64,000 bases of DNA, from assembly GCA_004519485.1 (NCBI GenBank), contig CP038109.1, forward strand, positions 1,060,745 through 1,124,744, written 5' to 3'. The translations under genes were made by a program, and so were the position numbers. Shown here piece after piece: positions 19,493 to 56,000 of the stretch. Source of the DNA: Nannochloropsis oceanica. Lineage: Eukaryota; Sar; Eustigmatophyceae; Eustigmatales; Monodopsidaceae. Under the pieces are notes generated by a model. That model was not told the DNA's origin. It did no database searches and worked only from the letters and a program-made list of their open reading frames with translations. The first letter of the stretch is position 1, and every line of letters starts with the position of its first letter.

Positions 19493-29811
<10,319 letters not shown>

Positions 29812-32110
29812 CTACCCGAAGCTATCTCTGTCTTCATGGAGTCATGATTTCTGTGTTTGTGGAGTCCAAATCATACCTTTAAAAGAAGTTGTGGCCAATT
29901 TGGTAACCTCCCCACTCTCTTCGGGCTGAAAGCTAAAACGACCTTTTTGAGACGCCAAATTCGTGTATATCATTGCACCTTTCTCCCTCCCTGAACAAGA
30001 TTATTTACATATCAACATGTTGTTCACATTTTCTTTAGGGTGTAGTTCACATTTTCTTTAGGGTGTAGTCTTCAGGAGGGCATTTATGGCGCTTGAGAAG
30101 CACAGTGTACCGTACAGGCGATCTATGGATCTCCCATGGGCCTTGCACTCAGGTCTATAAGCCTAGCATTTCGATGCGTCCCGGGGCGTGTGAAGCTTTG
30201 ACTTTGACGCATGTATGCTTGTCGTGGGCCGTATAAATGATCGAAAAACTTGATATGTCACCAGAAACTCTCTCACCAGGTTTTTTGTGCGATCGATGAT
30301 TACTTGGTATGGCGCGACGCATCTAAGTACTCCCCAAATTCTTATTACCTGGCAATTTCTTTGTATGCTCCAGGCGCCCGAAGACTCCAGTAGCGAGATC
30401 ATCGGTGCGGTACAAGGCGCTGTAGTAATTTTGCGAGACTTGTAGGCGTGGTTCTGCTCTCGGGGTGGGAAGGTCTTCCAGGTCTTTGTTGCGCAAAACC
30501 TGTACTGCTCCTTATGATTTGCATCTACATTCTTTCCTTCAGAGACAATCTTTCCCACTTAAAATACCTTCTTAATGCGACTATTGCTCTTCTTCCCTGT
30601 CAAGAAATTGCCTGGTAATAGCCTCAGGTAGCGTGTCCTTTCTTATGCTTTCAACAACGCAATCCATGGTTCAGTTTCGTAAATACTTATTGTTGCTCAA
30701 ATTGGCTGATGGATGCTGGACCTGATCCTTTCATTTACCCTCTTGCCAGTAATCATTGGGCTCGAACTATATCTCCTGCTCACGAAGACCAAAACATCGA
30801 CTACCAGTCCCTCTATAGACATCCGCTGCCTCACTAACCCGCAAATGTCCTTACGTGATATTGTCAAGAGTCAAAAAACGTCGACTCTTTCTCAAGGCAC
30901 TTCCGATGCGACCGACGGGAAAACTAATCCGGCTCGTAAACTACGATCTTTGCTTTGACCATTATAATGATGAGTACGATGCACGAGTAGACTTCTCATC
31001 AAGCGTCTTATAAAAACCTTCCCTTACACAAAGGGCACAACGACTCTTCTGAATCGCCCTAACATATCTTTCTTTCCATTGACACTATTTTTAGGGCTTG
31101 TTGAGAACCCTCCTGACGAAAGCCATCATAAAGGGCTTCCTATACATATCGTACAGTATCTCTCATTAATTTCCTACCTTGTCAACCACTAACTCAGCGC
31201 GCTATGACTAAGGAAAGATTATATACTTATTGCTGAGACCCAGTACCCCTTTTGTATGTGGTGATGGGCTCACTGCCTTTGAGCGTGTAACTATTAAACA
31301 GCTGAGATAGAAGACCGCGTTGGAGTGATGCCAAGGCTATATAACTTCTTACTGTTGTTGAGTTTTCCTTACCGCCCCAGCAACTTTCCTTTTGTGTGAT
31401 TCTATGAAGTATGACTTCATTCGGAGGTCAGGCGTCTATCAGGCATTAACTAAGCCGGTGATGACCCGGAAGTTGCCGACACCTTAGGCTTTACTGAACA
31501 CTGGCAGCCTTGGCATGCGCATGCTTGTTTACAATATCCGAGGCCGGCGGCAGGATCAAATTTGGCTGAGGACTCAAGCACTGCTTGACCATACACTTGG
31601 CAAGTGCCTTGGATCTATCCTCGAGAAGATTTCTACCTGTATCTCTGAGACGACAAATGACCTGCCTACGGCCTTCTTCCTCTTGGGCAGCTTAACATCG
31701 ACACATTTCTCCGGTGGTACCTGCTTTCTTCGCGCAGCCCATTCCATTGATCACAGCGACATGGCTGTGGACTTGGCATCGATAATCATACTGGCCGCTT
31801 TCTCCTATGACCTCGCCAATGCAATGTGACAAAATTATCAGCTACGGGGGATATGATGTATACATATATCGCGCTTGAAAGCCGATACCCCGATGTGGCT
31901 ATGAGGATGTAGGTGAAGGAGAGGAACCAAAGGAACATAAAGAGACGACTTGTTTTCTGCCTGAAGGTAGAAGAGATATAATTAGGTCACATCGAAATGC
32001 GTTCATTTGTTCTTCTCTCATTTCCTCTTCTTTGTCATTTCTTCAAGTTTTCTTCTCTTTTCTTTCTTGGGGAAGTTCTTGATACATATTTCCTTAGTTT
32101 TGTGGGGCAA
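29812..32110. other. non-coding part of the duplicated block (copy 1), 2.3 kb
   Basis: AT-richer and free of GGGA arrays. It contains a 2 x 24-bp direct repeat at about 30022-30069 (CACATTTTCTTTAGGGTGTAG twice) and a repeated module at 31230-31344. Small open frames (for example 30713-30958 plus, 30163-30558 minus, 31515-31829 plus) occur also in copy 2 only because the DNA is nearly identical, and the frame at 31515 is interrupted there. I found no reverse transcriptase, integrase or other mobile-element motif. Confidence 0.6.
31230..31344. repeat. dispersed module (copy M1)
   Basis: Contains TGGTGATGGGCTCACTGCC and TTGGAGTGATGCCAAGG. Related copies lie at 35085-35140, 38591-38710 and 38870-38984. 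The last is the block duplicate of this one. Confidence 0.75.
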
Positions 32111-32291
32111 GCTCACATACGTCGATCATCACGCCGCCACCATTCACGCCCAAGGGAGCCTCAACAAGAGAAAGCATCTTGGCATGGATATGGAGGTTGT
32201 GCGGGTCGACCGAAACGAGATCGCCTCTGCGAAGTGCATGAACGGGCTTAGACGTGCCATCCGCCATGACCACGAGTGCGTCCTTGTTGAA
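32111..32291 (-). pseudogene. remnant of the Hint domain, copy 1
   Basis: Sequence matching the start of the Hint domain of the copy 2 gene (ALVVMADGTSKPVHALRRGD and HNLHIHAKMLSLVEAPLG equivalents) survives on the minus strand but lies beyond the stop of the copy 1 gene. It ends abruptly at 32110, the deletion junction. The rest of the domain is absent. Confidence 0.85.
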
Positions 32292-33413
32292 TCAAATTGG
32301 ACTATTCGCCGTCGGAGATGTAGTAGGCGTGGCCGTCGGGGCTGTCGTAGGCGTGGCAGTCGGGGATGTAGTAGGCGTGGCCGTTGGAGATTGGGTCGGA
32401 CTGCCCGAGGCAGATGCAGATGGCGATGAAGATGGGCTCGCGGTAGGGGCAGTTGTAGGGCTGCCCGAGGGAGAAGCCGAAGGGCTGCTTGAGGGAGACG
32501 CAGAGGGAGCCCCAGTAGCGGCCTCGACAACCTTGAAGGCATTGAAATCAGGGTCAAGAATCAAAGTACATTCTCCACCGCAGCAAAAGCACTGAGTGGT
32601 CACCGTGTTCCAGTTGAAGAAAAACGGAGTCGATTCATTCCCATTGATCGAGCAGTATTCGAAGCACTCCGTCGGGGTATCAATCTGCACAGGCAGTCGA
32701 CGGTGCTTGCCACCAACATCGCTTAGCGAATCAAGTTCCCCATCACCTAGGGCCGACAGACGGCGATCTGGAGCAAAAGGCGCCAGTTGCCCTGCCTGCA
32801 AGCATCGCTGCCCCTCACCAAAAAGTTGGAAGGGAGTTGCGGGGTTGACGCTCGGGGCCGGGGTCGGCGCGCATGTGACAGGTTTCGACGAAGCGTGTTT
32901 GCCCGTCTTCTTGTCGCCTGGATACCGCACACGCACGACCGCGGGCTCGGCCAAGGGTACAGCACAGTAAGCGGACAGGTCCGTGGCGTTGACAAGGTAA
33001 ACCAGGGCAGTGACATCCAGCGTCTCAGGGGCACAGTCGTCGGCGATCACCACGGCCTGGAAGACACGCTTGGAGCTCTTTTTGAAGTCAAAGTCCGTCC
33101 AGTAGATGGCCGTCGTCCCATCCGGGTTCTGGATGCTCTGCGCCGGGGAGAGCATGCGGGACGGGCGGGCCTTCAGCTTCACCACGGACAAGCCGGCGGG
33201 CAGATCCATCTTGAAATTGACGTCCTGTGCGGCTTCCATACTTCGAAGCCTAATGGTGATCTTGGCCTTCTGTCGGCCTGCCAGGATCCCACGCTTGGCA
33301 TTGGGTTGCACCTTGGCGCCCAGAACAAGATCGGGACAGTCCTGGGCAACGGCGGTAGGCGCCCAGGCGCCGCCCAGGACGGCAAGCAGGGGGAGGGCGA
33401 GGGGCAGGTACAT
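32292..33413 (-). CDS. secreted Cys-rich protein, Hint-less paralogue (copy 1)
   Basis: Intronless, 373 codons. Signal peptide MYLPLALPLLAVLGGAWAPTAVA, then a beta-sandwich-like region (DLPAGLSVVKLKARPSRM, FQAVVIADDCAPETLDV) and a Cys-rich region (GEGQRCLQAGQLAPF, PTECFEYCSINGNES, TQCFCCGGECTLI) that resembles PAN/Apple-like or WSC-like surface domains. A Ser/Thr/Pro/Ala repeat tail (PSASPSSSPSASPSGS) follows and ends at a stop just before where copy 2 enters its Hint domain. It is probably extracellular or cell-wall associated. The N-terminal ~300 residues are nearly identical to copy 2, so the duplication is young. Whether the truncated form still works is unknown. Confidence 0.8.
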   Translation of the reverse strand: MYLPLALPLLAVLGGAWAPTAVAQDCPDLVLGAKVQPNAKRGILAGRQKAKITIRLRSMEAAQDVNFKMDLPAGLSVVKLKARPSRMLSPAQSIQNPDGTTAIYWTDFDFKKSSKRVFQAVVIADDCAPETLDVTALVYLVNATDLSAYCAVPLAEPAVVRVRYPGDKKTGKHASSKPVTCAPTPAPSVNPATPFQLFGEGQRCLQAGQLAPFAPDRRLSALGDGELDSLSDVGGKHRRLPVQIDTPTECFEYCSINGNESTPFFFNWNTVTTQCFCCGGECTLILDPDFNAFKVVEAATGAPSASPSSSPSASPSGSPTTAPTASPSSSPSASASGSPTQSPTATPTTSPTATPTTAPTATPTTSPTANSPI

Positions 33414-33621
33414 GCTTCTCGGTTGAATACCAGTCTATAAGACGGCGTGTATCTGTATCTGTGTCTTGAAGTATGAAGTGTTTGAGACTGTAGCGTGAGA
33501 GAGAACCAGGAGAATGAGAACGTAAGTCCCATTTCCACGGACACCACGGTGTATGATCTGTCCCTTTTCTGCCTCGTGCATGGAGGTCACCCATGAGTGT
33601 ATGCATGGTGTGTGAGATCGT

Positions 33622-34254
33622 TTGTATCATCTGTGTCTACATGTGGTATACATAGGGGAAAGAGGGACGAGTGATGCCCCCAGAAAGTCTCCCAAGAAAG
33701 TAACGCCTCGTCGCATGGGCCTCCCGGCCACACACAGCATCGCCTTGGCTTCTCACGACGAAGGGCTGCCCACAAACAGGGGCAAGGACCGCATGCTCAT
33801 TGATTCCAAGCCCAACAGAAAGGACAATCATGTGTCTTGTGTCTCGAAGAAGCAAGGGAGAATACGACAAATCTTCTTGCTCTCACTATATAGATGTTCT
33901 ACATCTATATATCTTACAGCCATGAGTTACTATTGGGAGGTGAAACGCCTGAAACGGCCAAATGTGGAGGGCTTCAACGGCTTTTTTGTGGCGCGAAACG
34001 GGGTTTTTGCTTGTCTTTTTAAAAACTCCATGTATGTATCATATGACCCATTCATGTGTATTGAGCGTGTACTAGAGCCCACAGAGCTGACGAGGAGAGA
34101 AGGAGGAAAGGGAGAAAGAGAGGGAGAAGGAGGAGGACAAGGAAAGGGAAAAGGAGGGGGGCAAGGAGGGGGACAGGAGGGGAAGGAGAAGGGAAGGAGA
34201 AGGGGGAGGGAGGGAAGGAGAAAGAAGGAGAAGAGAAAGGGGGACAGAGGGTAG
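33622..34254 (+). other. open frame, 210 codons, in shared upstream flank (copy 1)
   Basis: This frame runs divergently from the secreted gene and ends in a GGGA-type Gly/Arg/Lys tail. The twin at 42204-42830 stays open with 208 codons, but the underlying DNA is nearly identical, so conservation is no test of coding. No domain is recognised. I rate it more likely to be non-coding. Confidence 0.2.
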
Positions 34255-34364
34255 GAGGGAGCAATTATGTAGGGCAGGAAGAAGGGAGGATAGAAGTGAG
34301 GGGAGGAGGGGGTGGGAGAGGAGGTGTGGGAGGGAGAGAAGTAGGGAAGGAGCAGGGGAAGGAG

Positions 34365-34737
34365 GAGCTTGCGCTGGGGTTTTCGACATATACCTACATT
34401 AAGACTCGCTTCTCCGATGCTACAGTCTTTGATCCTTAAACCAACAAAAAGTACGAAGCGCGTAATTTATACAAAAACACGACTATCGATAGCCAATTTG
34501 AGTCAATTTGAGCAATATTAAGTATCTGAAAAGTGAACCAGATAACTGGCGATATGGTTAGAGAACCAAAGCTCTGGGAACCATAAGCCTCGGTAATGGG
34601 AACCAAAAGCTTAAGCCTTGGCCACAAGCCTTGACTTTTGGGAACCAGACGCCTTAGCCATCATCACTTGGTAATCAAACTTCCTGGGGCAACCCATATT
34701 TCACTCCTTAATCATCAAAGCGCGAAGCGCGTTAATC
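34365..34737. other. unique spacer before the inverted-repeat element
   Basis: The homology with copy 2 ends near 34364. The spacer is AT-rich and has a reiterated phrase (GGGAACCA...AAGCCT) near 34570-34660 and two related short segments, ACGAAGCGCG at about 34451 and GCGAAGCGCG at about 34721, each leading into a stretch like the element's outer end. No gene seen. Confidence 0.5.
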
Positions 34738-35347: not shown

Positions 35348-36604
<1,257 letters not shown>

Positions 36605-38590
36605 TGCAGCAGTAGCAGCGTCTCGCGTGTAAAGAGGACGGGCCAGGGTGGTGGAGGGGAGGGACGGAGTAAGGGAGAACGGACGCTATGTGGCGATAGA
36701 GGAAGAAGGAAAGCTTTGAGGGCACGGGTGCTGCTGCTGCTGTCTTCGTCGTCGTTAGCCATGTTTGTAGAAGAGTGATTGTAAGCACCAACACCACCCC
36801 CTTTTTTAGAATGTCCAATATGAAGAGGAGGAAGAGGAGGAGGAGGGAAGAGGGAATACGAAGGAGGATAAGGAGTGGCTTGCTCAGGTGTTCTGCCACA
36901 TTTCGGTGAGTTCCTCTGGTGTCCAGTAGCAGCATCAGAACAATCAAGATGAACACCATTACCACCAGCCATGGCAGTACGAGCAGGCCTGTCTGTGTCA
37001 TCAGCACAAGCGCGGTGCAGTGCCCGCCATCGTCGCCGTCCCCTCTGCCATGCACATGCTTGATACACACAGGTGGCCAACAAACGCAGTACACCCAATC
37101 CCCAAAATGAGGCTACGCACAGTGCGGTCGATGGAGAGGATGACATGGTAGCAAAGAATTGTTGCCATTGGTCAGCGGCACCATGGTTGCTGGTGGTGCT
37201 TGGACAGCTATAGGGGAGATCCATCAAATGATGGCCTGTACTCGTGATAGAGTGGACAGTTTGTAAGTGCCGGTCTGTGTATTGTCGCATGGGGAGCGAG
37301 ATCGACGGGGTGGATCCATGCATCTACCCGAAGCTATCTCTGTCTTCATGGAGTCATGATTTCTGTGTTTGTGGAGTCCAAATCATACCTTTAAAAGAAG
37401 TTGTGGCCAATTTGGTAACCTCCCCACTCTCTTCGGGCTGAAAGCTAAAACGACCTTTTTGAGACGCCAAATTCGTGTATATCATTGCACCTTTCTCCCT
37501 CCCTGAACAAGATTATTTACATATCAACATGTTGTTCACATTTTCTTTAGGGTGTAGTTCACATTTTCTTTAGGGTGTAGTCTTCAGGAGGGCATTTATG
37601 GCGCTTGAGAAGCACAGTGTACCGTACAGGCGATCTATGGATCTCCCATGGGCCTTGCACTCAGGTCTATAAGCCTAGCATTTCGATGCGTCCCGGGGCG
37701 TGTGAAGCTTTGACTTTGACGCATGTATGCTTGTCGTGGGCCGTATAAATGATCGAAAAACTTGATATGTCACCAGAAACTCTCTCACCAGGTTTTTTGT
37801 GCGATCGATGATTACTTGGTATGGCGCGACGCATCTAAGTACTCCCCAAATTCTTATTACCTGGCAATTTCTTTGTATGCTCCAGGCGCCCGAAGACTCC
37901 AGTAGCGAGATCATCGGTGCGGTACAAGGCGCTGTAGTAATTTTGCGAGACTTGTAGGCGTGGTTCTGCTCTCGGGGTGGGAAGGTCTTCCAGGTCTTTG
38001 TTGCGCAAAACCTGTACTGCTCCTTATGATTTGCATCTACATTCTTTCCTTCAGAGACAATCTTTCCCACTTAAAATACCTTCTTAATGCGACTATTGCT
38101 CTTCTTCCCTGTCAAGAAATTGCCTGGTAATAGCCTCAGGTAGCGTGTCCTTTCTTATGCTTTCAACAACGCAATCCATGGTTCAGTTTCGTAAATACTT
38201 ATTGTTGCTCAAATTGGCTGATGGATGCTGGACCTGATCCTTTCATTTACCCTCTTGCCAGTAATCATTGGGCTCGAACTATATCTCCTGCTCACGAAGA
38301 CCAAAACATCGACTACCAGTCCCTCTATAGACATCCGCTGCCTCACTAACCCGCAAATGTCCTTACGTGATATTGTCAAGAGTCAAAAAACGTCGACTCT
38401 TTCTCAAGGCACTTCCGATGCGACCGACGGGAAAACTAATCCGGCTCGTAAACTACGATCTTTGCTTTGACCATTATAATGATGAGTACGATGCACGAGT
38501 AGACTTCTCATCAAGCGTCTTATAAAAACCTTCCCTTACACAAAGGGCACAACGACTCTTCTGAATCGCCCTAACATATCTTTCTTTCCA

Positions 38591-38710
38591 TACTGTAGTT
38601 GCCGAGGGCACTTTTGTGAGTGGTGATGGGTTCACAGCCTTTGGGCGTGTATTCATTTATTGAACAGCTGAGATGGTAAACCGCGTTGGAGTGATGCCAA
38701 GGCTATAGCA
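38591..38710. repeat. dispersed module (copy M3), present only in copy 2
   Basis: Contains GTGAGTGGTGATGGGTTCACAG and TTGGAGTGATGCCAAGGC. Copy 1 lacks it at the equivalent place (31080), where TTCTTTCCAT runs straight on. It is either an insertion in copy 2 or a clean loss from copy 1. Confidence 0.75.
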
Positions 38711-38869
38711 CTTTTTTTAGGGCTTGTTGAGAACCCTCCTGACGAAAGCCATCATAAAGGGCTTCCTATACATATCGTACAGTATCTCTCATTAATTTCC
38801 TACCTTGTCAAACACATTACGAATTCCCCTAACTCAGCGCGCTATGACTAAGGAAAGATTATATACTTA

Positions 38870-38984
38870 TTGCTGAGACCCAGTACCCCTTTTGTATGTG
38901 GTGATGGGCTCACTGCCTTTGAGCGTGTAACTATTAAACAGCTGAGATAGAAGACCGCGTTGGAGTGATGCCAAGGCTATATAA
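38870..38984. repeat. dispersed module (copy M4)
   Basis: Block duplicate of M1 (31230-31344), nearly identical to it. Confidence 0.8.
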
Positions 38985-39195
38985 CTTCTTACTGTTGTTG
39001 AGTTTTCCTCACGGCCCCAGCGACTTTCCTTTCGTATGATTCTACAAAGTATGACTTCATTCGGAGGTCAGGCGTCTATCAGGCATTAACTAAGCTGGTG
39101 ATGACCCGGAAGTTGCCGACACCTTAGGCTTTACTGGACGCTGGCAGCCTTGGCATGCGCATGCTTGTTTACAATATCCGAGGCCGGTGGCAGGG

Positions 39196-39310
39196 GTGCC
39201 AATAATCAATCAATAATTTGATAATCACGCCGGTAACATTTTCTAGTCATCAGTATGACGAATATAGGCACCAACAAAATTGGTGCCTTAAATAAGAAAG
39301 TGGCCACGTG
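39196..39310. repeat. short copy 2-specific insertion with perfect hairpin
   Basis: About 115 bp absent from copy 1, where the flanks GGCAG and ATCAAATTTGGCTG are adjacent. It holds a perfect inverted repeat, AGGCACCAA (39266-39274) and TTGGTGCCT (39280-39288), with a 5-nt loop, plus GGTGCC again at its left edge. It may be a small non-autonomous element; I cannot classify it. Confidence 0.6.
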
Positions 39311-40321
39311 AGTAGAATCAAATTTGGCTGAGGAGTGCTCGACCATACACTTGGCAAGTGCCTTGGATCTGTCCTCGAGAAGATTTCTACCTGTATCTCT
39401 GAGACGACAAATGACCTGCCTACGGCCTTCTTCCTCTTGGGCAGCTTAACATCGACACATTTCTCCGATGGTACCTGCTTTCTTCGCGCAGCCCATTCCA
39501 TTGATCACAGCGACATGGCTGTGGACTTGGCAGCGATCACCATACTGGCCACTTTCTTATATAACCTCGCCAATGCAATTTGACAAAATTATCAGCTACG
39601 GGGGATATGATATAAATACATATATATATGGCGCTTGGATGTGGCTATGGGGATGTAGGTGAGGGTGATGAACCAAAGGAACATAAAGAGACGACTTGTT
39701 TTCTGCCTGAAGGTGGAAGAGATACAATTAGGTCACATCGGAATGCGTTCATTTGTTCTTCTCTCTTTTCCTCTTCTTTGTCATTTCTTCAAGTTTTCTT
39801 CTCTTTTCTTTCGGGAAGTTCTTGATACATATTTCCTTAGTTTTGTGGGGCAACCAACAAGAGCGTCCGCCTGTACGAATGTGCTATGCATATTCTTGTT
39901 TGGTTGGGAGGGGCTGTTTCCATCCTATATATCTTAGAAGAAATAAAAAGTGCCAGACTCTATGCCCAATGCCTTTCTTCGTTCACTGATTTTGAAAATA
40001 ATCAAACCCCCCTTACGCATAATTTTCTGTTTGTGAAATTGTAATTTCTTGTTTGTGAAATCGATATCGACCGTGGTAAAGCCTATAATCTTCATACATT
40101 TCATCGACGTATCTGGCGAAGGAGACTACGGATGGTCAGGGAGAGCGATTTATACAGACCAATCAGCCTCCTTAGGTGTTTTCTCTTATTTGAACCGATC
40201 TACGACGAAATAGAAATACGATAGTACTGGGAGAAATGCAGACAGACTGCTTGAGGGAGACAACGACAAAATACGTATATCATTACCATCGATCGTCACC
40301 TCTACTTTATTAGAAGCGTGC

Positions 40322-41995
40322 CTAAAGCTCCATGTGGGGGGAATGCACGGATGACACCGGCGGCAGCGACGACACCTGATGAGAGTCCTCCGCCGCAGCA
40401 ATCGGATTGGCGAGCTGCCAGTCCCTCTTGATTTGGAGGAATTTCAGTGTGTCGATCACCACATGTCCCGTTGCGAACCCGGGGCTCTGTTCCACAATGC
40501 GGTACTGCTCCAACTTGTAGGGTCGATCAATCATGGGCACACCCACGGGATACTTGACGAACGTGCCCACGGCAATTCCCTGGATGTTAACTGTATGGTG
40601 CGGACCTTCCTCCAACACAATCGAAAAGAGGCTCGGGAAGTGCCTCTTAGTGTCACAGGCGAACTCCCAGTGGGGACGAATCCAGCGGGTTCCATTCATG
40701 AGGAGTGGATGAGTAGGATTAATCAGAAAGCCTGGGGCAAGCTCACATACGTCGATCATCGCGCCGCCACCATTCACGCCCAAGGGAGCCTCAACAAGAG
40801 AAAGCATCTTGGCATGGATATGGAGGTTGTGCGGGTCGACCGAGACGAGGTCGCCTCTGCGAAGTGCATGAACGGGCTTAGACGTGCCATCCGCCATGAC
40901 CACGAGTGCGTCCTTGTTGAAGCAAGGTTGAACAGTAGGTGCGGGAGTCGCACTAGGCGTGGCCGTCGGAGATGTAGTAGGCGTGGCCGTCGGAGATGTA
41001 GTAGGCGTGGTAGTAGGAGAAGTAGTAGGCGTGGCTGTTGGAGAGGCCGAGGGAGAAGCCGAAGGGCTGCTTGAGGGCGACGCAGAGGGAGCCCCAGTAG
41101 CGGCCTCGACAACCTTGAAGGCATTGAAATCAGGGTCAAGAATCAAAGTACATTCTCCACCGCAGCAAAAGCACTGAGTGGTCACCGTGTTCCAGTTGAA
41201 GAAAAACGGAGTCGATTCATTCCCATTGATCGAGCAGTATTCGAAGCACTCCGTCGGGGTATCAATCTGCACAGGCAGTCGACGGTGCTTGCCACCAACA
41301 TCGCTTAGCGAATCAAGTTCCCCATCATCTAGGGCCGACAGACGGCGATCTGGAGCAAAAGGCGCCAGTTGCCCTGCCTGCAAGCATCGCTGCCCCTCAC
41401 CAAAAAGTTGGAAGGGAGTTGCGGGGTTGACGCTCGGGGCCGGGGTCGGCGCGCATGTGACAGGTTTCGACGAAGCGTGTTTGCCCGTCTTCTTGTCGCC
41501 TGGATACCGCACACGCACGACCGCGGGCTCGGCCAAGGGTACAGCACAGTAAGCGGACAGGTCCGTGGCGTTGACAAGGTACGCCAGGGCAGTGACATCC
41601 AGCGTCTCAGGGGCACAGTCGTCGGCGATCACCACGGCCTGGAAGACACGCTTGGAGCTCTTTTTGAAGTCAAAGTCCGTCCAGTAGATGGCCGTCGTCC
41701 CATCCGGGTTCTGGATGCTCTGCGCCGGGGAGAGCATGCGGGACGGGCGGGCCTTCAGCTTCACCACGGACAAGCCGGCGGGCAGATCCATCTTGAAATT
41801 GACGTCCTGTGCGGCTTCCAGACTTCGAAGCCTGATGGTGATCTTGGCCTTCTGTCGGCCTGCCAGGATCCCACGCTTGGCATTGGGTTGCACCTTGGCG
41901 CCCAGAACAAGATCGGGACAGTCCTGGGCGACGGCGGTAGGCGCCCAGGCGCCGCCCAGGACGGCAAGCAGGGGGAGGGCGAGGGGCAGGTACAT
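40322..41995 (-). CDS. secreted Cys-rich protein with C-terminal Hint (hedgehog/intein) domain
   Basis: Intronless, 557 codons. Signal peptide (1-23), beta-sandwich-like region (about 25-175), Cys-rich PAN/WSC-like region (about 195-300), a Thr/Ser/Pro-rich linker, then a Hint domain from about residue 365. It opens at a Cys (TVQPCFNKDALVVMADGTS), the nucleophile position. It carries KPVHALRRGDLVSV (block A continuation), INPTHPLLMNGTRW (block B, NPTH equals the TxxH motif), and HTVNIQGIAVGTF (equivalent of the HTVxxNG strand). The order resembles fungal and protist Vint proteins and metazoan Hedgehog (secreted ligand plus self-processing domain). If active, it would cleave itself before the Cys. 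About 90 residues follow the Hint core. The gene is the intact member of the pair with 32292-33413. Confidence 0.85.
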   Translation of the reverse strand: MYLPLALPLLAVLGGAWAPTAVAQDCPDLVLGAKVQPNAKRGILAGRQKAKITIRLRSLEAAQDVNFKMDLPAGLSVVKLKARPSRMLSPAQSIQNPDGTTAIYWTDFDFKKSSKRVFQAVVIADDCAPETLDVTALAYLVNATDLSAYCAVPLAEPAVVRVRYPGDKKTGKHASSKPVTCAPTPAPSVNPATPFQLFGEGQRCLQAGQLAPFAPDRRLSALDDGELDSLSDVGGKHRRLPVQIDTPTECFEYCSINGNESTPFFFNWNTVTTQCFCCGGECTLILDPDFNAFKVVEAATGAPSASPSSSPSASPSASPTATPTTSPTTTPTTSPTATPTTSPTATPSATPAPTVQPCFNKDALVVMADGTSKPVHALRRGDLVSVDPHNLHIHAKMLSLVEAPLGVNGGGAMIDVCELAPGFLINPTHPLLMNGTRWIRPHWEFACDTKRHFPSLFSIVLEEGPHHTVNIQGIAVGTFVKYPVGVPMIDRPYKLEQYRIVEQSPGFATGHVVIDTLKFLQIKRDWQLANPIAAAEDSHQVSSLPPVSSVHSPHMEL

Positions 41996-42203
41996 GCTTC
42001 TCGGTTGAATACCAGTCTATAAGACGGCGTGTATCTGTATCTGTGTCTTGAAGTATGAAGTGTTTGAGACTGTAGCGTGAGAGAGAACCAGGAGAATGAG
42101 AACGTAAGTCCCATTTCCACGGACACCACGGTGTATGATCTGTCCCTTTTCTGCCTCGTGCATGGAGGTCACCCATGAGTGTATGCATGGTGTGTGAGAT
42201 CGT

Positions 42204-42830
42204 TTGTATCGTCTGTTTCTACATGTGGTATACATAGGGGAAAGAGGGACGAGTGATGCCCCCAGAAAGTCTCCCAAGAAAGTAACGCCTCGTCGCATGG
42301 GCCTCCCGGCCACACACAGCATCGCCTTGGCTTCTCACGACGAAGGGCTGCCCACAAACAGGGGCAAGGACCGCATGCTCATTGATTCCAAGCCCAACAG
42401 AAAGGACAATCATGTGTCTTGTGTCTCGAAGAAGCAAGGGAGAATACGACAAATCTTCTTGCACTCACTATATAGATGTTCTACATCTATATATCTTATA
42501 GCCATGAGTTGCTATTGGGAGGTGAAACGCCTGAAACGGCCAAATGTGGAGGGCTTCAACGGCTTTTTTGTGGCGCGAAACGGGGTTTTTGCTTGTCTTT
42601 TTAAAAACTCCATGTATGTATCATATGACCCATTCATGTGTATTGAGCGTGTACTAGAGCCCACAGAGCTGACGAGGAGAGAAGGAGGAAAGGGAGGAAG
42701 AGAGGGAGAAGGAGGAGGACAAGGAGAGGGAAAAGGAGGGGGCCAAGGAGGGGGACAGGAGGGGAAGGAGAAGGGAAGGAGAAGGGGGAGGGAGGGAAGG
42801 AGAAAGAAGGAGAAGGGCGACAGAGGATAG
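42204..42830 (+). other. open frame, 208 codons, in shared upstream flank (copy 2)
   Basis: Twin of 33622-34254. It starts on the strand opposite the secreted gene and ends in a Gly/Arg-rich GGGA-type tail. No domain. I doubt that it is translated. Confidence 0.2.
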
Positions 42831-42942
42831 GTAGGAGGGAGTATGTAGGGCAGGAAGTGGGAAGGATAGAAGTGAGGGGAGGAGGGGGAGGGAGAGGAGG
42901 TGTGGGAGGGAGAGAAGTAGGAAAGGAGTAGGGGAAGGAGGA

Positions 42943-43654
42943 GGGAAAGGAGGATGGAGAATTCGGGGCTGGAGGAATGGAAAGAGGATGGAGAGAAAGA
43001 AGTGTGGGATTTCTCTCGCCCTCCCCCTTCTTAAGACCCTCTATGCCCATATTTAGTTTCTGGTGCATGCACGGTAGTCGGAGATGCAGATGACTACGAT
43101 AGCTATCGGTGCACGCCAAAAATCCTCTGCGTTAATCCAAGTTCATTTCTTCTTCTTCCTCCTTCTCTTCCTCCCCCTTACCCTTTCCCCATCCCCCCCA
43201 TCCCCCCATCCCCCCATGCTTGTTGTATAAGCATGCGCCGCTTCTTTGGCTTCATCGCTTCCTGGCTCCAGCCCTCGCTCATCACCCCCATAACTCAATA
43301 TTTTTTTCCTGGATAGCTAGGATTAGGATTGATTTCGTCGGGGAGAACAAATGTTAGAGTCTCTCCTCAGGCAATTTTGTCACAGAAACAATGTTGGTGC
43401 CGCCTGCTTGCTCGAAGGAGGAGGCAAGCTTCGAAAGAGCAAAAATAGATAGAAAAGGATGAGGTTACTGGGCAAACGCAATGGACGCTATTAAAAAGTC
43501 ATGCAAAGGACAGCACGTCCAATATTCAGCCATAATGGAAAGCAACTATGCAATATCATACATGCCTTGTATGTTCCACTTTATGTCTCCTTCGAGGATT
43601 GATGATTACTTTCACTTGCTATACATATCACACGCCACTCCTTAGGTATGGCAT
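42943..43654. other. intergenic, no protein gene seen
   Basis: After the duplication ends there is a purine-rich patch, then a pyrimidine/CCCCAT-rich patch near 43140-43220, then AT-richer DNA leading to the tRNA gene. No coding frame is supported. Confidence 0.5.
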
Positions 43655-43772
43655 GCCTCGATAGCTCAGTTGGGAGAGCGCACGACTGAAGATCGTGCGG
43701 TCATGTGTTCGACCCGGACGTCTCTCACGTGAGGACGACTTAACGGTCTGCAAGCGATCCACATTCGAGGCA
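43655..43772 (+). tRNA. tRNA-Phe (GAA) with a 45-nt interruption in the T-loop
   Basis: All four stems are perfect. Acceptor GCCTCGA (43655-43661) pairs with TCGAGGC (43765-43771), with discriminator A at 43772. D-stem GCTC/GAGC has loop AGTTGGGA. Anticodon stem CACGA/TCGTG encloses loop CTGAAGA, with anticodon GAA at 43688-43690. The variable loop is CGGTC. T-stem ATGTG (43703-43707) pairs with CACAT (43760-43764). The T-loop reads TTCGA, then 45 extra nucleotides (43713-43757), then TC. Removal gives a 73-nt tRNA with a normal 7-nt TTCGATC loop. CGA occurs at both edges, so the exact cut is ambiguous by 3 nt. The canonical intron position (37/38) is empty. A T6 run follows 17 nt downstream. 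Confidence 0.9.
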
Positions 43773-43789
43773 TATCACTGAACCATATC

Positions 43790-43795
43790 TTTTTT
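43790..43795 (+). terminator. RNA polymerase III T6 terminator
   Basis: CTTTTTTGG begins 17 nt after the discriminator base of the tRNA, the usual distance for a Pol III stop. This supports active transcription through the whole interrupted gene. Confidence 0.8.
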
Positions 43796-53069: not shown

Positions 53070-56000
53070 ATGCTCCCCAGGCAGCGAAGGGGAAAGACGA
53101 CACCAGTAGCAGCAGCAGCAGCAGCAGCAGCAGCAGTCGTGTTTTTCTTTCTCCTATCCCTCTCCGTCCTGAGAAGAGGCACCACGCGTGCCGCAGTTGC
53201 CGCGGCGTCCTCCTCGTCCCCCCCCCCCGCTATCTCGTTTTTCGGTCGCTACTGGAGCGGCGGCGGTGGCAGGGCACGACAACGCCGTGAAAACATAAGA
53301 CCCCTGCTCCTCCTATATTCTACTACCCCTTCGTGCAACTCCCCTCAATCACGCACCTCGATAATGGCAGCCAAGCGCAAAGCCACGACATTGAAAGCGG
53401 AAACAACAACACCTGGGGCAGGAGCAGCAGGAGCAGCAGCAGCAGCAGCAGCAGCAGGAGCAGCAGCGACAGCAATGAAAGGGGGAGGGCGCGAGGGGGT
53501 TCGGGGAAATTGGATGGATTTAGGAGTGCCTGCGTATGAGCTTCGACCAGAGTTTTCCCTAATGATGGGACAGTGCTTCAACTGGCGCCGCAAGATTGAT
53601 CAGGGTATAAAGAAGGGAAAGGAGGTGGAGGAGGAGAAGGGAGGGAAGGAGGAGGGAAAGGTGATCGAAGCACCTGCATCAGCAGCAGTCAAAGTAAGAA
53701 AAGGAGGAGAAGGGGAGGAGGAGGGGGAGGAGGAGGAGGAGGACAAGGTGTGGGTAGGGGTCCTGGATCGGTATATTCTGGAAGTGCAACAAACACGTAC
53801 TTCTACATTGGTGCGACGCGTGGTGGTGGCCAGCGGCGGGGGGGTAGGGATAAAGAAGGGGGAGGAAGAGGAGGAAGAGGTGCTGTTGGCGCGCTTGCGG
53901 GATTACTTTCAAGTGGGGGTGAGTGTTGAGTGTTGCGAGGAAGAGGTTTCGTGAGGGAGGGGGATACAGTGGGGAGGGCCCTGTTTCTCCTCTCACACCA
54001 ACAATAAAGGGCATTTACTGACACTACACGACCCACCTTCACCCACTGCCCTCTCTACACGTCTGTGCACAGACGCCTCTGGCCCCTCTTTATGCAACGT
54101 GGGCTCACGGGGATCCTCGTATGAGGTCTGTCGCTGACTCTCTGCCAGGCGTGCGGGTTGTACGGTACGTGGCCGCCCTTCCCTCCCTCCGTCCCTTCCT
54201 CCACCCCCTTCCTGATCCATCCTGGTGCGCCCCACCCCCATTTCCATTCATTCATATTTTGTTTATTCATTCCTTCACCGCCCCTCCCCCCCAAGGCCAA
54301 ATATATGCTCACTCGCATACGCATTTATGACCTTCCCCCTCCCCCTCCCCCTCCCTTTCGCCCGGCAGCCAGGACCCGGTGGAGTGTCTCTTCTCCTTCA
54401 TCTGCTCTTCCAACAACAACATAGCCCGCATCGGCCTCATGCTCACCCGTCTCCGACAAACATATGGCGAACCTCTGGTACCGCCCTCCCTCCCTCCCTC
54501 CCTCCCTCGATTCCTCCCTCCTTCACTGCATACGTGATTTGAATCCTCTCTCATTTATTCCCCGCCCTTCCCTCCCTCCCTCCCTCCCTCCCTCCCTCTT
54601 TCCCTTCCCTCTTCTTAATCCCAGGGCGACGGGCACTACACCTTCCCCTCCGTTTCCTCTCTTGCTGCAGCGTCCGAAGAAGAGCTTCGCGGTCTAGGAC
54701 TGGGTTACCGAGCGCGGTTCATCAAGGTTATCAATCATTCAAGCCCTCCCTCCCTCCCTCCCTCCCTCTCTTTCCTTTCTCTTAAGATTTCGTGTCCCAC
54801 CCTCCGTCTCACCCTCCGTCCCTCCCTCCCTCCCTTCCTCCCTCCCTCCTCCTGCTCAGAAAACTGCGGCCAAGCTAATAGACCTGGGAGGGGAGGAATG
54901 GCTTTTGTCATTACGTGGAAAAGGGCGCGAAGAAGCGCAGGTAGGCTTCTAGAAGCGCGTGTTTCCATTCGTCTCGCCCTCCCTTCCTCCCTTCATTCCC
55001 TCCCCTCGTCCCTGACTCCTTCCTTTTCAACCTTCCCCTCCCTCCCCCCTCCCTCCCTCCCCCCCCCCCCTCCAGGAGGCGACTCCTTCCTTTTCAACCT
55101 TCCCCTCCCTCCCCCCTCCCTCCCTCCCCCCCCCCCCCTCCAGGAGGCGACTCCTTCCTTTTCAACCTTCCCCTCCCTCCCCCCTCCCTCCCTCCCCCCC
55201 TCCCCTCCAGGAGGCCCTCTGTGCCTTCCCCGGTGTAGGGCGGAAGGTGGCTGATTGTGTAGCGCTATTTTCGCTCGATCAGCACGGAGCCATCCCGGTG
55301 GATGTGCATGTAAGGAGGGAGGGAGGGAGGGAGGGAGGGAGGGAGGGAGGGAGGGAGGGAGGGAGGGAGGGAGGGAGGGAGGGAGGGAGGGAGGGAGGGA
55401 GGGAGGGAGGGAGGGAGGGAGGGAGGGAGGGAGGGAGGGAGGGAGGGAGGGAGGGTAGGCAGGCGGGTGCTGCTGGGTAGTAAAAGGAGAGGAAGAGAAA
55501 GAGGGAGGGAGGGAGGGAGGGAGGGAGGGAGGGAGGGAGGGAGGGAGGAGTATCGTGAATTTACACGAGTCTTATTCTCACTCTACGGTCCTTTTCTCTG
55601 TCCCTCCCCCTCTCCCTCCCCCCCTCCCTCCCTCCCTTCCTCCCTCCCTAGGTCTGGCGTATCGCCTGTCGAGACTACGACCTGTCCCTCAAAGACAGCA
55701 AGAGCCTCACCCCCTCCATATATGAGTCTGTGGGTGACATCTTCAGGAACAAATTTGGGCCGCACGCTGGCTGGTAACTAGACATATCGCTTTCTATATC
55801 CCTCTTTTTCTTTTTGATACTGGGTAATTACCTTCCCTCCCTCCCTTCCTCCCTCCCTCCCTAGGGCCCACTCCCTACTGTTTGCCGCAGAGCTGCCCAT
55901 GTACCGCGCCCGTTTACCGCTCGCCCTTCAAAATGAAATGCTAGCGTTCAAGAAAGAAGAAAGCGAGGGAAAATTTCTGAAGAGGGAGAAAAAGAAGCAG

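Follow-up and report, generated by a model that had tools for sequence, protein, structure and literature searches.

The 64,000-nucleotide stretch analyzed here, from the genome of the oil-producing alga Nannochloropsis oceanica (contig CP038109.1, positions 1,060,745 to 1,124,744; hereafter the window, whose own coordinates are used below unless a contig is named) carries on its forward strand a tRNA-Phe(GAA) gene whose T-loop is interrupted by 45 nucleotides (nt). The locus is very probably a functional, apparently single-copy nuclear gene with an ectopic T-loop intron, placed most likely between bases 55 and 56 of the mature tRNA (55/56). The gene spans 43655-43772, and all four of its stems are complete. 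The acceptor stem (GCCTCGA, 43655-43661, with TCGAGGC, 43765-43771) and the T-stem (ATGTG, 43703-43707, with CACAT, 43760-43764) are Watson-Crick in every pair, and they are accompanied by a GCTC/GAGC D-stem and by the anticodon arm CACGA-CTGAAGA-TCGTG, with the anticodon GAA at 43688-43690. The T-loop reads TTCGA (43708-43712), then 45 nt, then TC (43758-43759); the discriminator A stands at 43772, and a T6 run resembling an RNA polymerase III (Pol III) terminator lies 17 nt downstream of the gene (43790-43795). An initial annotation of the window had described these stems, the split T-loop and the T6 run, and each of these elements is indeed present. At 55/56, the 5' exon is 43655-43709, with T55 as its last base (it extends to 43712 if the junction is 58/59), the intron is 43710-43754, and the 3' exon is 43755-43772, which comprises the remainder of the T-loop, the 3' strands of the T- and acceptor stems and the discriminator, and exactly matches bases 56-73 of the spliced 73-mer. 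Because CGA is present at both edges of the insert, the identical mature tRNA-Phe results from any excision from 43710-43754 (55/56) up to at least 43713-43757 (58/59).

A finder based on tRNA structure and tolerant of loop inserts returned one match of at least 18.5 in the 64-kb window, counting both strands, and that match is this gene. With a loosened A box, it again reported this gene only. In control sequence shuffled in two-base blocks, it gave no match of at least 20 in 5.02 Mb and, with the looser A box, none of at least 19 in 3.84 Mb. Standard tools are likely to overlook such essential genes: ARAGORN calls a wrong, shortened tRNA-Phe at the locus (43660-43728), and Rfam at its gathering threshold gives no match in the window, the gene scoring 27.5 bits in the genome-wide scan, under the 29-bit cut-off. 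The tool named for tRNAs in the methods of the N. oceanica genome paper is tRNAscan-SE (PMC6610115).

The genome searched comprises 29,264,788 bases in 32 contigs. Contigs 31 (38,068 bases) and 32 (117,556 bases) were taken for the mitochondrion and the plastid, respectively; the published genome is described as having 30 pseudochromosomes for the nucleus and one each for the mitochondrion and the chloroplast (PMC6610115). These two contigs carry 45 of the 63 genome-wide matches to Rfam RF00005, leaving 18 on nuclear contigs. The exon-joined 73-mer had no match in the whole assembly except at the tRNA-Phe locus, as two exon pieces, and a 201-nt query including the insert had no further match anywhere in the genome. 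The pattern formed by the Phe D-stem and anticodon arm occurs at 149 places with at most two mismatches (4 exact, 6 with one and 139 with two). The four exact places are the tRNA-Phe gene itself, an intact plastid tRNA-Phe, an intact mitochondrial tRNA-Phe and one non-tRNA; five of the six one-mismatch places (all but C24:89) were read and hold no tRNA, so that the check covers nine of the ten best places (at most one mismatch) out of 149. The initial annotation had named an intact tRNA-Phe(GAA) elsewhere as the observation that would speak for a dead locus. Within the coverage of the 73-mer search and these nine places, none is found on the nuclear contigs, and intact copies occur only on contigs 31 and 32.

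The interruption is far from isolated. Our survey collected 32 nuclear tRNA genes and one decayed copy, an incomplete set that lacks, among others, genes for initiator Met, Trp, Cys, Gln and a number of Arg and Gly anticodons. Half of these genes (16/32) are interrupted, 11 of them ectopically, in the T-loop in eight cases and in the D-loop in four. The T-loop alone is interrupted in Phe-GAA, Pro-TGG, Leu-TAG, Leu-TAA, Asp-GTC and Gly-CCC, and the D-loop in Lys-CTT and Arg-CCT. Two introns each are found in Ser-GCT (T-loop and anticodon loop), Ile-TAT (T-loop and D-loop; contig C24, forward strand, with T8 near 490415) and His-GTG (D-loop and anticodon loop; C13, reverse strand, with T8 near 782827). 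Only the anticodon loop is affected in Asn-GTT, Glu-TTC, Tyr-GTA, Met-CAT and a fifth gene, read as Val-GAC with some uncertainty about its anticodon. The T-loop inserts of the seven genes besides Phe measure 49-66 nt. Fourteen genes are uninterrupted (Ala-TGC, Ala-AGC, Arg-ACG, Ile-AAT, Leu-CAG, Leu-CAA, Leu-AAG, Pro-AGG, Ser-AGA, Ser-CGA, Thr-TGT, Thr-CGT, Val-TAC and Val-CAC), and two more, Ala-CGC and Lys-TTT, have a D-loop that is 6 nt larger at about the same place in both, which may reflect micro-introns or simply large loops. No anticodon occurs twice among the 32. The proposal that this eukaryotic tRNA-Phe gene carries an ectopic T-loop intron is supported, and the gene is one of many interrupted tRNA genes across the genome.

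Amino acids were assigned from the anticodons; the His-GTG assignment also rests on an apparent resemblance. Ser-GCT and Asp-GTC were parsed only under relaxed pairing rules, the shuffle controls covering the stricter settings, and the Met-CAT intron (26 nt at 37/38) was read by hand assuming a T31-T39 mismatch, the parse of the finder being different. The Val-GAC reading, at C27:264529-264637, holds with a 37/38 intron, and other junctions would yield other anticodons; Val(GAC) is an unusual anticodon in eukaryotes. The His-GTG gene lies about 0.3 kb from Ala-TGC on the opposite strand, and genes for the same amino acid are paired about 0.25-4 kb apart at five places (on C4, C17, C21, C27 and C28, for Ser, Lys, Ala, Val and Leu). 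An early impression from the 18 nuclear Rfam matches, that nearly all nuclear tRNAs are disrupted, was dropped once intact Pro-AGG, Leu-CAA, Leu-AAG and Arg-ACG genes turned up. An anticodon pattern tried earlier occurred at 312 places. Among the candidate loci, L051-L054, L060, L068, L070-L074 and L077 (judged by eye) and L108-L113 yielded no tRNA, and further loci among L051-L107 yielded none as judged by the finder only.

Signals for transcription can be read in the tRNA-Phe gene despite the insert. Its A box, TAGCTCAGTTGG (43662-43673), is intact, and a B-box core, GTTCGACCC (43707-43715), spans the edge between exon and insert in the DNA, being readable because the first bases of the insert provide the downstream C. 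The expectation of the initial annotation that a T-loop intron splits the B box does not hold well for tRNA-Phe. With an intact A box and a read-through B-box core, the objection from promoter recognition is weaker for this gene, but it stands for Ile-TAT and Gly-CCC, in which the box is lost. Across the eight T-loop-interrupted genes, the full GTTCRANNC is present in four (Phe, Leu-TAA and Ser-GCT at the 5' edge and Asp at the 3' edge) and GTTCRA alone in two (Pro-TGG and Leu-TAG); the losses in the other two led us to reject the idea that the B box is always preserved. Among 28 tabulated genes (the 32 without His, Ile-TAT, Gly-CCC and Leu-AAG), a run of at least four T within 80 nt downstream occurs in all 28 as a raw count, and an upstream TATA motif occurs in six and is absent at Phe.

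Evidence bearing on splicing comes from the tRNA-Gly(CCC) gene at C4:689118-689254, which has a 66-nt T-loop insert. An intronless tRNA-Gly(CCC)-like sequence with an encoded CCA is present at C16:426250-426320. It aligns without gaps to the spliced tRNA-Gly(CCC) plus CCA, with 67 of 73 positions identical, whereas alignment to the unspliced form requires gaps. By eye, mismatches are seen in its acceptor, D and T stems, which is what a decayed copy would show, and CCA is reported not to be encoded in a eukaryotic nuclear genome (PMC3978253). We had initially read this sequence as a tRNA-Gly(CCC) gene; that reading gave way to one as a retrocopy. The simplest reading is that it would be a reverse-transcribed mature tRNA-Gly(CCC), in which a precise T-loop splicing event of this lineage is fossilized. 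This copy is indirect evidence that a T-loop intron is removed in vivo. The insert of the tRNA-Phe precursor is probably cut out and the exons rejoined, by a route that has so far been known from a few other lineages only.

A candidate for the enzyme is encoded at C15:810834-811162 as two pieces of a tRNA_int_endo domain, one scoring 30 bits (above the family cut-off) and the other 16.2 bits (below it); joined as exons, they reach 59.1 bits in Pfam. The top match among 17 to PDB entries is an EndA-like endonuclease (5x89), followed by six Sen34 entries, and by sequence the domain is a SEN34-like tRNA-splicing endonuclease domain. In the mechanism that we propose, Pol III would transcribe the tRNA-Phe gene from the intact A box and the read-through B-box core and stop at T6. 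Together with the remainder of the cloverleaf, the T-stem would then place the junctions in a relaxed setting resembling a bulge-helix-bulge (BHB), the tRNA-splicing endonuclease would cleave both junctions, and a tRNA ligase would join the exons before CCA is added.

The position of the junction was constrained by the requirement for a canonical TTCRA loop after splicing. Such a loop is obtained at 55/56 only in Ile-TAT, at 55/56 or 56/57 in Gly-CCC, at 53/54 to 55/56 in Asp and at 55/56 or later in Phe and Pro, so that 55/56 is compatible with all five class I T-loop-intron genes, Phe included. Several observations, however, weigh against the reading developed here. The three class II genes have no canonical T-loop at 55/56, obtaining one at 56/57 or later (Leu-TAG) or at 58/59 or later (Leu-TAA and Ser-GCT). 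With the T-stem as outer helix, a BHB at 55/56 has a central helix of three out of four pairs in Phe, with a C-A mismatch, and 16 of 32 pairs over all eight T-loop introns, where 12.0 would be expected (P about 0.10); class I alone, with five genes, gives 9/20 (P 0.30). For a strict BHB helix, six T-loop genes had given a suggestive P of 0.022 at 55/56, no other of the eight junctions scoring lower, and this weakened to 0.10 once all eight genes were included. Folding of the Phe precursor is no more favorable than that of shuffled sequence (z -0.80, or -0.27 with the tRNA arms fixed), and among 13 genes folded, only Ser-GCT is clearly better (z -3.36). As for the helix between GACC (43711-43714) and GGTC (43745-43748) proposed in the initial annotation, both strings are present, but their role in splicing finds no support in these folding scores. 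The domain search of the genome gave one endonuclease subunit only, and the other SEN subunits were not found by that search. The Gly copy on C16 could possibly be an older paralogue with a chance CCA (1 in 64). Finally, the Rfam scan overlooked the intact Pro-AGG, Leu-CAA, Leu-AAG and Arg-ACG genes that were later found otherwise, and this leaves some room for a strongly diverged second nuclear tRNA-Phe gene, which we regard as unlikely. Given the weak BHB statistics and the unremarkable folding, we infer that the insert is a tRNA intron cut, as in Cyanidioschyzon, by a TSEN-type endonuclease, which would find its sites chiefly through the cloverleaf and a relaxed motif.

The alternative that survives best is a variant of this reading rather than its exclusive competitor, in which the same intron is spliced at 58/59 (43713-43757, the coordinates given in the initial annotation). 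It is a tenable but clearly less favored choice: for Phe and Pro it leads to the same mature tRNA, it is from this junction on that Leu-TAA and Ser-GCT acquire their canonical loop (Leu-TAG doing so from 56/57), and it keeps the B-box half GTTCRA entirely within the 5' exon. Against this, it leaves Asp, Ile and Gly without a canonical T-loop, and on our reading of the geometry the central helix of a BHB would need the 3' strand of the T-stem; moreover, the Gly(CCC) intron of Cyanidioschyzon is reported at 55/56 (PMC3978253).

A different view is that the insertion killed this copy and that tRNA-Phe is supplied by another gene or by an organelle. The plastid and mitochondrial contigs do carry intact tRNA-Phe genes, but export of organelle tRNAs to the cytosol would be exceptional, and the 73-mer search and the nine pattern places yielded no synonymous nuclear copy. 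A pseudogene is also improbable in light of its undecayed exons, with the acceptor and T-stem pairs all Watson-Crick, and of the ten further nuclear genes with similar ectopic interruptions in a collection where no anticodon is duplicated. Still less probable is an insert that represents a mobile-element remnant or an assembly error. The CGA at both edges resembles a 3-nt target-site duplication, yet the insert-containing query matches nowhere else in the genome, and polishing of the published assembly drew on PacBio and Illumina reads at about 113-fold and 105-fold coverage, respectively (PMC6610115). The T-loop insertions of eight different tRNAs also occupy nearly the same site. A spliceosomal or self-splicing intron can practically be set aside, since 45 nt is too short for a group I or II intron, tRNA genes are Pol III products and neither parse of the insert starts with GT. 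In favor of a spliceosomal origin are the AG at the end of the 55/56 parse and the introns reported in N. oceanica protein genes (mean 371 bp; PMC6610115).

The reading as a T-loop intron places the gene among disrupted tRNA genes known from a few other systems. Introns at the canonical 37/38 site also occur in N. oceanica (Tyr, Asn, Glu, Met and others), and the Phe insert lies about 20 nt beyond that site. According to the reviews consulted, eukaryotic D- and T-loop introns have been described in an extremophile red alga and in nucleomorphs, and they are called almost absent in green algae. In that red alga, Cyanidioschyzon merolae, introns are reported in more than 62% of nuclear tRNA genes (PMC9602550). 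The two algae are alike in having D-, anticodon- and T-loop introns, several per gene, and a T-run downstream (PMC3978253, PMC4090602, PMC9602550). The correspondence extends to individual genes: the Gly(CCC) intron is at 55/56 in C. merolae (PMC3978253) and at 55/56 or 56/57 in N. oceanica, and Ile(UAU), with D-, anticodon- and T-arm introns in C. merolae, has D- and T-arm introns in both. In contrast, N. oceanica has a stramenopile nucleus and thus belongs to a different supergroup; the BHB is reported as a critical determinant in Cyanidioschyzon, whereas a strict BHB is unsupported here; and a readable B box remains in four of the eight T-loop genes of N. oceanica, while C. merolae reportedly lacks identified TFC1 and TFC3 homologues. 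Permuted tRNA genes, as found in Cyanidioschyzon, did not turn up, no dedicated search for them having been made.

In the nucleomorph of Guillardia theta, too, introns interrupt the D- and T-arms of eukaryotic tRNA genes, and two such short ectopic introns are present in its tRNA-Phe(GAA) (Kawach et al. 2005, via PMC4090602 and PMC3978253). Sequencing of RT-PCR products is reported to have confirmed their excision, many of them being without a defined BHB motif (PMC4090602, PMC3978253). They measure 3-24 nt, however, and lie in the relict nucleus of an endosymbiont, as against T-loop introns of 45-66 nt in the main nucleus of N. oceanica. Crenarchaeal introns (at 20/21, 53/54, 56/57, 59/60 and other sites; PMC4090602) share T- and D-loop positions with those described here, but they are archaeal and BHB-dependent. 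Among the literature matches listed, none described ectopic tRNA introns in Nannochloropsis or any other stramenopile, most subscription journals lying outside the search. The T-loop-intron tRNA genes of N. oceanica are a known kind of disrupted tRNA gene in a new lineage.

If this holds, eukaryotic tRNA-splicing enzymes would handle sites other than 37/38 in an unrelated lineage, and a culturable host would be available in which to learn how. The sites held in common with Cyanidioschyzon make independent gain and endosymbiotic inheritance testable against each other. On a bolder and rather unlikely view, the tRNA set of N. oceanica would be a second "shattered" repertoire of the Cyanidioschyzon kind, its shared sites (Gly-CCC near 55/56 and the D and T arms of Ile-UAU) being inherited either through the nucleus of a red-algal endosymbiont or from an ancient shared state, with permuted genes among the missing isoacceptors (initiator Met, Trp, Cys, Gln and most Arg and Gly).

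Elsewhere in the window, a large duplication relates 23967-24975 and 29091-34367 to 35348-42943, with blocks up to 99.95% identical over 1989 bp, and ends about 0.7 kb before the tRNA-Phe gene. Its second copy contains an open reading frame (ORF) on the reverse strand (40322-41995) with a Vint/Hint domain. GGGA/CCTC tetranucleotide repeats are very dense from 3600 to 28500, and the product of a further ORF, at 53070-53954, matches the N-terminal domain of 8-oxoguanine glycosylase (OGG_N).
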